Source: an uncultured Acidobacteriota bacterium (GTDB lineage Bacteria > Acidobacteriota > Thermoanaerobaculia > Gp7-AA8). Taken from it: 44,731 bases of DNA. Positions within the stretch are counted from its first letter, which is position 1. Each line of letters starts with the position of its first letter. A program made the position numbers and the translations under genes. Location: contig CALMZP010000111.1 in the NCBI GenBank assembly GCA_937870635.1, positions 1-44,731 of the forward strand. Direction: 5' to 3'. Below, piece by piece: positions 5,974 through 15,646 of the stretch. The notes beneath the pieces were generated by a model. The model saw nothing but the letters and a program-made list of their open reading frames with translations. It did no database searches and was not told the origin of the DNA.

Positions 5974-6042
5974 GATTTTGGATTTTGGATTTTGGATTTT
6001 GGATTGGTCCAAAATTCAAAATCCAAAATCCAAAATCCAAAA
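5974..6042. repeat. Inverted heptad-repeat element, unit TTTTGGA
   Basis: The left arm (5974-6005) is a run of TTTTGGA units. After a short loop (GGTCC) the right arm (about 6010-6042) repeats the reverse complement, TCCAAAA. The two arms can form a long AT-rich hairpin. A nearly identical element with the same edge sequences (accGATTTTGG, GGATTGGT) lies at 7583-7646, on the other side of the chorismate mutase/DAHP synthase operon. Here it lies between divergent transcription units. Apart from this element and the aro leader, the 326-base gap 5898-6223 holds nothing I can identify. Confidence 0.9.
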
Positions 6043-6050
6043 TGAATCTC

Positions 6051-6059
6051 TGCTATCCT
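6051..6059 (+). promoter_or_regulatory. Candidate extended -10 promoter of the aro leader
   Basis: TGCTATCCT matches the extended -10 pattern TGnTATnnT. There is no good -35 box at the usual distance, which is tolerated at extended -10 promoters. A start of transcription about 7 bases downstream would fall near 6066-6069, at the ATG of the leader peptide, making the leader mRNA practically leaderless. This is consistent with the lack of a Shine-Dalgarno sequence there. It is inferred from sequence only. If transcription starts further upstream, a second in-frame ATG at 6042 could be used instead. Confidence 0.4.
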
Positions 6060-6068
6060 CCCGCCTTC

Positions 6069-6116
6069 ATGTCCCGCGCCCTTTCGTTTAGCCGCTATTA
6101 CCGCTACGGCACGTAG
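6069..6116 (+). CDS. Tyr/Phe-rich leader peptide of the aro operon
   Basis: A 15-codon reading frame, MSRALSFSRYYRYGT, ends at TAG 6114-6116, 107 bases before the chorismate mutase gene. It has three Tyr codons within four positions (6096-6107) and one Phe codon (6087-6089) but no Trp. An in-frame ATG at 6042 would extend it by nine residues and add one Tyr and one Phe. Directly after the stop come mutually exclusive hairpins and a terminator (6120-6210). This is the arrangement of ribosome-mediated attenuation, where stalling at codons for the pathway's end product relieves termination. The downstream genes make prephenate, the precursor of Tyr and Phe. I know of no family name for this peptide; the call rests on composition and context. 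Confidence 0.6.
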   Translation: MSRALSFSRYYRYGT

Positions 6117-6119
6117 CAC

Positions 6120-6183
6120 GGGGCACATTCGCGCCCCGGCATCGGGAAGGGGCGCATCGATCCGGCAAATCGCAAACCTCTTC
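6120..6183 (+). promoter_or_regulatory. Attenuator: alternative hairpins of the aro leader
   Basis: Four segments can pair in exclusive ways. Segment 1 (6120-6124, GGGGC) pairs with 2 (6133-6137, GCCCC). Segment 2 (6131-6137, GCGCCCC) pairs with 3 (6149-6155, GGGGCGC). Segment 3 (6146-6152, GAAGGGG) pairs with 4 (6177-6183, CCTCTTC, one G-U). Segment 4 also forms the left arm of the terminator at 6174-6203. A ribosome at the leader stop codon would cover segment 1 and favour 2:3 plus the terminator. A ribosome stalled at the Tyr codons leaves 1:2 free to form, so 3:4 can block the terminator. The pairings are read from the sequence; the regulation is inferred. Confidence 0.55.
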
Positions 6184-6210
6184 TCGCTGACGGGAAGAGG
6201 TTTTTTGTTT
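6174..6210 (+). terminator. Rho-independent terminator in the aro leader
   Basis: A 10-bp stem (AAACCTCTTC 6174-6183 with GAAGAGGTTT 6194-6203) encloses a 10-base loop, and the run TTTTTTGTTT follows at 6201-6210. It lies just upstream of the Shine-Dalgarno sequence GGAGGA (6215-6220) of the chorismate mutase gene, with no space for a promoter in between. It must therefore be read through for that gene to be expressed, as expected for an attenuator. Confidence 0.8.
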
Positions 6211-6223
6211 GTCCGGAGGATTC

Positions 6224-6544
6224 ATGACCGATGCACGATTCGCCGTTTCTGAGGATCGCGCGCCGCGCGAGCTCACACGGCTTCGCGATGCGATCGACCA
6301 CATTGACGAAGTCCTCGTCCGGCTCCTCAATCAGCGCGCGAAGTACGCGATCGAGATCGGTCAGATCAAGGGCGTGATGAAGCTTCCGATCTATTCGCCG
6401 GAGCGGGAAAAGGAAGTTCTGGCCAACGCCGAACGGTGGTCGGAAGGTCCGCTCACTCCTCCCGCCGTTCGCCGTCTCTTCGAACGAATCATCGACGAAT
6501 CGCGGCGCGTCGAGCGCGAAGCGTCCTCTGAAAGGCAGGATTGA
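6224..6544 (+). CDS. Chorismate mutase, AroQ fold
   Basis: Converts chorismate to prephenate, the branch-point step to Phe and Tyr, in the cytoplasm. The 106-residue protein is about the size of a stand-alone AroQ-class enzyme and shows its pattern: LRDAIDHIDEVLVRLLNQRAKYAIEIGQIK in the first long helix, SPEREKEVLANA in the second and PPAVRRLFERIIDESRRVE in the third. Active-site Arg and Lys positions of helix 1 appear kept. The start ATG 6224 follows GGAGGA with normal spacing; an upstream TTG (6209) would lie in the terminator U-tract. The gene is 3 bases from aroF, so the pair is one operon, and its expression is probably controlled by the leader attenuator. Confidence 0.92.
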   Translation: MTDARFAVSEDRAPRELTRLRDAIDHIDEVLVRLLNQRAKYAIEIGQIKGVMKLPIYSPEREKEVLANAERWSEGPLTPPAVRRLFERIIDESRRVEREASSERQD

Positions 6545-6547
6545 TCC

Positions 6548-7564
6548 ATGGTCATCGTGATGCAGAAGGCAGCTCCCGAAGAAAAGATCGAGCGCGTGAT
6601 GGCGGAGCTGACCCGTCGCGGCTTCGACGTCCACCGTTCCACAGGCGCCGACCAGACCGTCCTCGGCGTCGTCGGCGACGTCGCTTCGATCGACTCCCGC
6701 GAATTCGAGCTGTTCGACGGAGTGCAGGAAGTCGTCCGTGTCAGCGAGCCCTACAAGCTTTCGAGCCGCACATTCCGCCCCGAGAACACGATCGTCAAAG
6801 TGAACGGCTGCGGGATCGGCGGGAAGGAAGTGGTGGTCATGGCCGGGCCGTGCACGATCGAGAACGAGCCCCAGCTGTTCGAGACCGCGCGCGCCGTGGC
6901 CCGGGCCGGGGCGAAGGTGCTTCGCGGCGGCGCCTGGAAACCGCGCACGTCACCTTATGCGTTTCAGGGCATGGGCATCGAGGGGTTGAAGCTCCTGCGC
7001 GCGGCGGGAAAGGAATTCGGCATGGCTACGGTGTCCGAGGTGATGGAGATCAGCCAGATCGAACCGGCGCTCGAGTATGTGGACATCATCCAGATCGGCG
7101 CGCGCAACATGCAGAACTTCAACCTGCTGTCGGCGGTCGGTCAGACGAGAAAGCCGGTGCTGCTCAAGCGAGGTATGTCAGCGACGATCCAGGAGTGGCT
7201 TCTCGCAGCTGAATACATCATGGCCGGCGGCAACTATCAGGTGATCCTCTGCGAACGGGGCATCAGGACGTTCGAGACGTACACGCGGAACACTCTGGAC
7301 ATCTCGGCGATCCCGGTCATCCAGAAACTCTCGCACCTGCCGATCATCGTCGACCCGTCTCACGCCACGGGACGGCGCGACAAAGTCATGCCGCTGGCCC
7401 GCGCCAGCGTTGCGGCCGGCGCCGACGGGCTTCTGATCGAGGTGCACGTCGATCCCGACAAGGCACTCTGCGACGGACCGCAGTCGCTGTATCCGGAGGA
7501 CTTCGTCCATCTGATGGACGAGCTGAAGATCATCGTGCCGGCGGTGCGGAGGACATTGGGATAG
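6548..7564 (+). CDS. aroF: 3-deoxy-7-phosphoheptulonate synthase (DAHP synthase), type I-beta
   Basis: Condenses phosphoenolpyruvate with erythrose 4-phosphate, the first committed step of the shikimate pathway. The 338-residue protein has an N-terminal ferredoxin-like regulatory domain (about 1-70), as in the Thermotoga-type enzyme, where it mediates feedback by Tyr/Phe. The TIM-barrel catalytic domain follows and carries VVMAGPCTIE, VLRGGAWKPRTSPYAFQG, PVLLKRGMSATIQEWLLAAEY, ILCERGIRTFE and IIVDPSHATGRRD. It lies directly after chorismate mutase. Together they feed prephenate to TyrA, which is encoded convergently just downstream. Regulation appears double: allosteric through the N-terminal domain (family knowledge) and transcriptional through the leader (inferred). 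Confidence 0.95.
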   Translation: MVIVMQKAAPEEKIERVMAELTRRGFDVHRSTGADQTVLGVVGDVASIDSREFELFDGVQEVVRVSEPYKLSSRTFRPENTIVKVNGCGIGGKEVVVMAGPCTIENEPQLFETARAVARAGAKVLRGGAWKPRTSPYAFQGMGIEGLKLLRAAGKEFGMATVSEVMEISQIEPALEYVDIIQIGARNMQNFNLLSAVGQTRKPVLLKRGMSATIQEWLLAAEYIMAGGNYQVILCERGIRTFETYTRNTLDISAIPVIQKLSHLPIIVDPSHATGRRDKVMPLARASVAAGADGLLIEVHVDPDKALCDGPQSLYPEDFVHLMDELKIIVPAVRRTLG

Positions 7565-7582: not shown

Positions 7583-7646
7583 GATTTTGGATTTTGGATT
7601 TTGGATTTTGGATTGGTAAGAAAATCCAAAATCCAAAATCCAAAAT
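7583..7646. repeat. Inverted heptad-repeat element, unit TTTTGGA (second copy)
   Basis: TTTTGGA runs at 7583-7614 are followed, after a short loop (GGTAAG), by TCCAAAA runs at 7621-7646, forming a long hairpin. It is almost the same as the element at 5974-6042, in the same orientation. It fills the space between the convergent 3' ends of aroF (7564) and tyrA (7652), where it could act as a bidirectional 3'-end structure. No canonical T-tract terminator is present here. Confidence 0.9.
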
Positions 7647-7651
7647 GCCTT

Positions 7652-8389
7652 TCACTTTCCTCGCACCTCGTTCCCATACAGCCTCTGCGCGCGCTCGAAA
7701 TCCTCGGCGCCGATCGACCGCATCGTGTCCCACAGCTGCTGGGCGGCGACGGAGATGTTTTCGTTGTTCTGGTCGAGGATCGGTTCCCAGACGGCGTAGC
7801 TGCTCCCGGCGAGGCGCAGCATCGACTTCGCGCCGCTGCCGATGAACCGCGGATCGACGCCGTCGAGAAGTGATCCGAGCGCCGTGGCGACGACCTGCGG
7901 CAGATGACTCGTCAATGCCATGACGCGGTCGTGTTCCATCGCATCGACGACGACCGCTTCCGCCCCGGTCGCGGCGATCAGGGCCATCACCTTCTCGTCG
8001 GTGCGGTTCACAAACCACGGCCGCTTCACGAACAGCTCCGCGTCCGCGACTTCGAGGCCGCGATGCTGCGACCCGGCGAACGGGTGGCCGGCAACGAAAT
8101 TCACGTCCGCCGCAGCATCGAGCAAAGGGCCCATCACGCCGCTGACCGACGTCACTACGCTGTCTGTTCCTCCGAGCGTGGCGAGCTGAGCGCGCGCGAC
8201 ATCGGATGGTGTGGCCAGGACGATGATCTCGCCCTCGAGGCGCTCCTGCATGTCGTCGGCCGCGCCGGCGGCACGTGCCGCGGCCAGGGACACGTGCGGA
8301 TCGACGAAGCTGACGTGCCATCCGCGGGCTCGCAGCGCCTTTCCGAGCGATCCGCCGATGAGCCCGAGGCCGGCGATGACTACGTCCAC
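7652..8389 (-). CDS. tyrA: Prephenate dehydrogenase
   Basis: Oxidatively decarboxylates prephenate to 4-hydroxyphenylpyruvate for Tyr synthesis. The 245-residue protein starts with a Rossmann motif (G7-L-G9-L-I-G12-G). Asp30 at the end of strand 2 suggests NAD rather than NADP. The family's substrate-binding GHPFAGS segment is at about 101-107 and the C-terminal helical part includes EHDRVMALTSHLPQVVATAL. It is slightly short for the family (often about 280) and has no ACT domain. The start is GTG 8389; the ATG a few bases upstream is in another frame. A TACAAT box (8401 to 8396 on the minus strand) lies six bases before it, so the mRNA may be leaderless. It is convergent with aroF. Confidence 0.9.
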   Translation of the reverse strand: MDVVIAGLGLIGGSLGKALRARGWHVSFVDPHVSLAAARAAGAADDMQERLEGEIIVLATPSDVARAQLATLGGTDSVVTSVSGVMGPLLDAAADVNFVAGHPFAGSQHRGLEVADAELFVKRPWFVNRTDEKVMALIAATGAEAVVVDAMEHDRVMALTSHLPQVVATALGSLLDGVDPRFIGSGAKSMLRLAGSSYAVWEPILDQNNENISVAAQQLWDTMRSIGAEDFERAQRLYGNEVRGK

Positions 8390-8395
8390 GGGGGC

Positions 8396-15570: not shown

Positions 15571-15646
15571 GGGTCCATAGCTCAGCGGTTAGAGCTACCG
15601 GCTCATAACCGGCAGGTCCCAGGTTCGAATCCTGGTGGACCCACCA
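15571..15646 (+). tRNA. tRNA-Met (anticodon CAT; tRNA-Ile2 not excluded)
   Basis: A complete cloverleaf with encoded CCA. The acceptor stem GGGTCCA pairs with TGGACCC, the discriminator base is A, and the D arm is AGCTCAGCGGTTAGAGCT. The anticodon loop is CTCATAA with CAT, on a CCGG/CCGG stem plus one A-C mismatch at the outermost pair. The T arm is CCAGG-TTCGAAT-CCTGG. It is not an initiator tRNA, because it lacks the three G-C pairs flanking the anticodon loop and the mismatched first pair. A CAT anticodon can also belong to tRNA-Ile2 after lysidine modification; the U4-A69 pair argues mildly for Met. Confidence 0.93.

Follow-up and report, generated by a model that had tools for sequence, protein, structure and literature searches.

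A Tyr-rich leader peptide and putative transcription attenuator before aroQ-aroF in an uncultured acidobacterium, with sister elements carrying His or Trp codons

In trpL and pheL of E. coli, it is the stalled ribosome that masks segment 1, and the antiterminator is the 2:3 pairing. The enterobacterial his leader has six segments, and termination is its default without translation. Switching is kinetic in known attenuators. To our knowledge, leader peptides dominated by Tyr codons are rare. The closest precedent for the element described here is Corynebacterium aroR, a comparison by function and codon content alone. In C. glutamicum, aroR is a Phe-Tyr-Phe leader before aroF for which a response to Phe, not Tyr, is reported (PMC11802643), with transcription rising when the ribosome stalls (Neshat et al. 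2014, in PMC11802643). RNA-seq in this species also revealed small leader peptides before trpE, leuA, ilvB, and aroF (PMC3890552). A 2010 survey assigned almost no functions to attenuators in Acidobacteria (PMC2965389), and the open literature that we searched contained no account of Acidobacteriota leader peptides of this kind.

Here we analyzed a window of 44,731 nucleotides from an uncultured soil bacterium. An initial annotation had presumed the Acidobacteriota as its phylum, correctly, and the class is Thermoanaerobaculia. It had also read the region before the chorismate mutase and DAHP synthase genes as a candidate Tyr/Phe attenuator, which is supported by our comparison of 12 genomes. 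The features of the locus, in window coordinates, are as follows.

5975–6043, no strand: palindromic heptamer repeat (ATTTTGG)n/(CCAAAAT)n, read from the sequence, at the position of the -35 element in relatives
6051–6059, plus strand: probable extended -10 element TGC-TATCCT, with the TAnnnT spacing common to leaders of the order
6069–6116, plus strand: leader peptide ORF MSRALSFSRYYRYGT, conserved upstream of aroQ-aroF across 12 family genomes
6119–6124, plus strand: segment 1, CGGGGC (core GGGGC, 6120–6124), pairing with segment 2
6131–6138, plus strand: segment 2, GCGCCCCG (core GCGCCCC, 6131–6137), with segment 1 or 3 as partner
6143–6155, plus strand: segment 3, CGGGAAGGGGCGC, in which 6149–6155 pairs with segment 2 and 6143–6152 with segment 4
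6174–6186, plus strand: segment 4, AAACCTCTTCTCG, the terminator 5' arm, in which 6177–6186 pairs with segment 3
6191–6206, plus strand: segment 5, the terminator 3' arm, and T-run
6224–6544, plus strand: aroQ, AroQ-class chorismate mutase (PF01817, E 7.5e-24; TIGR01807, 1.1e-16, below its cut-off)
6548–7564, plus strand: aroF, DAHP synthase (NF006421/TIGR01361, above cut-off)
7652–8395, minus strand: tyrA, prephenate dehydrogenase, a convergent neighbor given for context (PF02153, PF20463)

The aroQ gene starts at ATG 6224 behind a Shine-Dalgarno site, GGAGG, at 6215–6219, and aroF encodes the Bacillus subtilis type of DAHP synthase with an N-terminal ferredoxin-like domain. Heptamer repeats at 5975–6043 and 7583–7646 flank the operon, and a 22-mer of the repeat has 451 exact matches in the window's genome. 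At one contig end in this genome, a stretch resembling DAHP synthase is interrupted by a single in-frame TAA (G000:C112:4884-5573); it may represent a decayed paralogue or a fault in the assembly.

The leader ORF has 15 codons and ends at a TAG stop (6114–6116). Its aromatic codons are a Phe at 6087–6089 and Tyr at 6096–6101 and 6105–6107, and the short ORF with clustered Tyr codons reported by the initial annotation is real. That annotation had left the start open between ATG 6042 and ATG 6069. In all 31 homologous leaders of the order, the TAnnnT box ends 6–12 nt upstream of the start codon, which makes ATG 6069 the most likely start. We rejected ATG 6042, which borders the genome-wide heptamer repeat and lies outside the conserved -10 spacing. 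A TTGAC-type -35 element is present in 27 of the 31 leaders; the four without it, which include both attenuators of the window's genome, all have TGC before the -10 box. In these two attenuators a copy of the heptamer repeat occupies the expected -35 place, and the extended -10 remains. No Shine-Dalgarno site precedes the leader ORF in any of the 31. With the usual distance of 6–8 nt from -10 box to +1, transcription would probably start at about 6066–6068, and this together with the 6–12 nt spacing predicts a 5' UTR of 0 to about 6 nt. Because the -10 box ends so close to the start codon and a Shine-Dalgarno site is lacking across the 31 leaders, the leader mRNA is probably leaderless or nearly so.

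All five RNA segments and the terminator with its T-run are present where the initial annotation had placed them. The terminator hairpin comprises 13 bp (6174–6203) followed by the T-run to 6206, and the fold of 6118–6212 is more stable than shuffled sequences (z = -4.0). The segments can form two exclusive sets of structures, 2:3 with 4:5, the latter being the intrinsic terminator, or 1:2 with 3:4. The 3:4 antiterminator pairing is present but extends further than the initial annotation had it; it has 10 contiguous pairs, 6143–6152 with 6177–6186, and reaches into the terminator loop. In an Rfam search of the window, neither the amino-acid leader families (Trp_leader, His_leader, Phe_leader, and others) nor the T-box covariance model matched, and at four loci tested the leader families gave no match down to E = 1. 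The sole Rfam match in the window is a tRNA gene at 15571–15643 on the plus strand.

A homologous element sits directly before aroQ in ten genomes, and a covariance model adds G015 and G002. The total is 12 genomes of this Thermoanaerobaculia family with leader and scaffold upstream of aroQ-aroF; the aroF orthologues found across the family are 76–89% identical. The Tyr leader peptides have 12–16 residues (for example MNHSALRYAYYYGYYS, MNHTAPRYAYYYGYFT, and MFLRAYYYGFYT). Together the 12 leaders contain 45 Tyr, 18 Phe, 2 Trp, and 4 His among 181 codons, with the aromatic codons mostly in one block that ends 1–3 codons before the stop; TAT/TAC and TTT/TTC interchange among them. Comparison of aroQ-aroF leaders had been proposed as a check, and the ORF, its stop-adjacent Tyr/Phe codons, and the alternative pairings are all kept in the relatives. 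For G001, just 391 nt of upstream sequence could be searched for a leader.

Some DAHP synthase genes lack the element. In G005, aroQ-aroF has no leader of its own because aroQ sits 5 nt behind trpA. The second aroQ-aroF copy in G012 (L022, G012:C133:7767-8777) has no attenuator and a plain promoter near the aroQ start, and is a natural unregulated control. A second DAHP synthase paralogue, about 50% identical, also has no such leader. Before orthologous DAHP synthase genes in Terriglobia and Gastranaerophilales we found no convincing Tyr leader; a recurrent Gastranaerophilales ORF, M[IT]FSFWSFKS, was dropped because no terminator follows it.

A covariance model built from Tyr leaders only (R1) also found His and Trp leaders on the same scaffold in the family's genomes, with E values down to 7e-9. 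These sister elements share with the Tyr leaders the promoter spacing and the series GGGGC, GCGCCCC, RAGGGGCGC, and terminator. A His run (MNTDFAHTWHHHHHHVM) precedes hisZ-type genes in hisZ-his operons, and a Trp run (MNAPRNWWWSRRS) precedes aroDE in aroDE-trp operons. In the genome of the window itself, a His leader, VLSTSTFSRHHHHLHHPV, lies upstream of a hisZ-type gene (G000:C123:3159-3270; L194 1501-1612). The element is one of a set of Thermoanaerobaculia paralogues, in each of which the codon run (His, Trp, Tyr/Phe, or a mixture) corresponds to the downstream operon. High-scoring matches of a model of 26 elements (R2) are essentially confined to this order and include the His leader of the window's genome. 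Weak matches across the phylum, with E values of about 1e-5 to 1e-2, are for the most part ordinary terminators, and some of them follow what we take, by eye, to be SAM-riboswitch-like sequence. In another acidobacterial class, L222 (G287:C37, about 1135–1316) contains a candidate Cys leader, MSGNGGTSHRFTGRLVRSRAHLGCCCPICP, followed by a terminator, and the gene behind it reads like a sulfate adenylyltransferase. Also outside the class, L226 / L208 (G249:C193) has a possible His leader ending in NYTWHHHTR before a hisZ-like gene.

In sequence comparisons, leader codons track operon content across the class. Outside the family, most class members carry trpE about 6–7 kb behind hisG on the same strand, and a Pfam check of G059 (L228) and G054 (L229) gave the fused order hisZ...hisI-trpE-trp. 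We scanned upstream regions blindly for short ORFs that are rich in His or Trp (at least three His or at least two Trp) and followed by a terminator, a threshold that selects either codon and does not force both. Mixed His and Trp leaders were found in 17 of 17 fused his-trp operons with a leader (such as WWHGVHHHGDF, WLRWHHHGLS, SWHWHHG, and HWHHWTHN). One of these, G141, was added from the model search, and its fused operon is assumed from family f18 because the contig is too short to display it. Fused operons headed by His and Trp leaders include those of L228 (G059), L229 (G054), L257-L262, L271, and L272. Separate his operons in G100, G101, and G108 have His-only leaders, and separate trp operons in G132 and G134 have Trp-only leaders. 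With the family's leaders included, Trp occurs in 3 of 14 his-only leaders and His in 2 of 10 trp-only leaders, versus both in all 17 fused cases (Fisher tests, p = 4e-6 and 2e-5, ignoring phylogeny). The blind scan found no leader upstream of several mixed operons and gave 0 matches on reverse strands. In G005, the one genome in which aroQ-aroF lies within the trp operon, a single leader with Tyr, Trp, and His codons (MTGKASRNSYYGWWHYRS) stands before aroDE, in an operon that continues with a histidyl-tRNA-synthetase-like gene, trpE, D, C, F, B, A, aroQ, and aroF; this operon, having absorbed aroQ-aroF, has Tyr codons in its leader.

The antiterminator pairing was then compared across elements. 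In the other leaders 3:4 spans 7–16 pairs and its sequences vary, with partners such as CATTGAGAAGGGG with CCTCTTCTCGATTC and TTTGGGAAGGGG with CCTCTTCTCGAAA. Pairing is stronger with a leader's own partner than with swapped partners over 31 elements (p = 0.0003, ignoring phylogeny). The covariation that the initial annotation had proposed to look for is weak within the variable parts alone (p = 0.02 overall and 0.14 within Tyr leaders). RNAalifold was uninformative on covariation because MAFFT misregisters the terminator arms.

Using a ribosome that masks 12 nt counted from the A-site, we modeled the effect of its position on folding. Our core measure is the extent to which the core of segment 3 pairs to segment 4, since simply counting the pairs of segment 4 gives too high a value at the stop codon. 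When the A-site is on the final aromatic codon the mean is 0.92, compared with 0.42 when it is at the stop, and in the window the values are 1.00 and 0.15. The effect persists for footprints of 11–13 nt. By a looser measure the positional switch is 0.32, versus 0.035 +/- 0.062 in shuffles, with 0 of 60 replicates as large. On average the simulation agrees with the claimed logic, in which a ribosome on the aromatic codons favors 1:2 and 3:4 and one near the stop favors 2:3, and it does so clearly for roughly half the Tyr leaders. In about half (for example G017, G015, and G012) the model favors 3:4 even with the ribosome at the stop, and at equilibrium the switch is absent in about half of the 13 sequences modeled. 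Since the complete transcript at equilibrium always prefers the terminator, the antiterminator would have to act kinetically.

Taken together, the sequence evidence argues strongly that the element is a ribosome-mediated transcription attenuator sensing charged tRNA-Tyr, and probably tRNA-Phe. We infer that RNA polymerase initiates a few bases upstream of ATG 6069 and that a ribosome loads onto the leaderless, or nearly leaderless, 5' end. With ample Tyr and Phe the ribosome would reach the stop codon and mask segment 1; 2:3 would then form, leaving segment 4 free for segment 5, and transcription would terminate before aroQ. When Tyr or Phe is scarce, the ribosome would stall at the aromatic codons with segment 1 unmasked, so that 1:2 and 3:4 can form and forestall the terminator, letting transcription proceed into aroQ-aroF. 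The hairpin may additionally hide the aroQ start site, because its purine-rich, GAAGAGG-like 3' arm is the only Shine-Dalgarno-like stretch before aroQ in 10 of the 12 Tyr leaders; the window, with its own GGAGG, would be an exception.

The same 3' arm raises the question of control at the level of translation, in which the hairpin mainly hides the aroQ start, ribosome position frees it, and there is little or no termination. The aroQ start codon is indeed at most about 10 nt past the T-run in those 10 of 12 leaders. However, a run of 4–9 T behind the stem in nearly all leaders is the signature of a terminator, and in the window and in G012 the Shine-Dalgarno sites are separate from the hairpin, so we consider this explanation unlikely. 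A device independent of amino acids, either a leaderless ORF and terminator reading the general translation rate or a plain terminator, with the aromatic codons incidental, would fit the several leaders that show no equilibrium switch. It is very unlikely given that the aromatic run is kept in 12 genomes and that the leader codons fit the operon in the His, Trp, Tyr, and mixed cases alike. Slightly less probable still is nascent-peptide arrest of the TnaC type, or a functional small protein, in place of codon sensing. The Tyr leaders do have a short conserved C-terminal pattern, YYxGYx, but the length of the peptide and its sequence outside the run vary, and on this scaffold HHHHHH or WWW can take the place of the Tyr codons.

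As a putative attenuator sensing charged tRNA, the element is not a new principle. Like aroR, it has Phe and Tyr codons in a leader peptide upstream of a DAHP synthase operon; aroR belongs to another phylum, and Tyr predominates in the present leaders, which form part of a His/Trp/Tyr set. A Tyr leader before DAHP synthase is thus less unusual than the initial annotation had suggested, while a paralogous set with swappable codons is unusual. With E. coli trpL and pheL the element shares a leader rich in the regulated amino acid, exclusive hairpins, and an intrinsic terminator. It differs in having five segments and in the ribosome that would mask segment 1, here the finishing one, so that loss of translation should leave the operon on. 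It resembles the enterobacterial his leader in having more than four pairing segments and, in its sister elements, a His run before his genes, although no Rfam His_leader match reached the threshold in the window, and none appeared down to E = 1 in the four loci. A Tyr T-box would likewise sense tRNA-Tyr charging before aromatic genes, whereas the present sensor would be a translated codon run.

We give even chances to a wider reading, in which these are paralogous leaderless-mRNA attenuators of Thermoanaerobaculia whose scaffold was copied between operons with codon runs exchanged, and whose logic is inverted relative to E. coli trp. In this reading, the exchanged runs would be of His, Trp, Tyr/Phe, or mixtures that track operon fusion and fission; the inverted default and the leaderless start are predictions. 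With five segments in this order, the expected default is an unusual one, readthrough when translation is absent. The specificity of the whole attenuator set would be readable from its leader codons, and the single and mixed leaders that track operon fusion may offer a natural series for how attenuator specificity can evolve.
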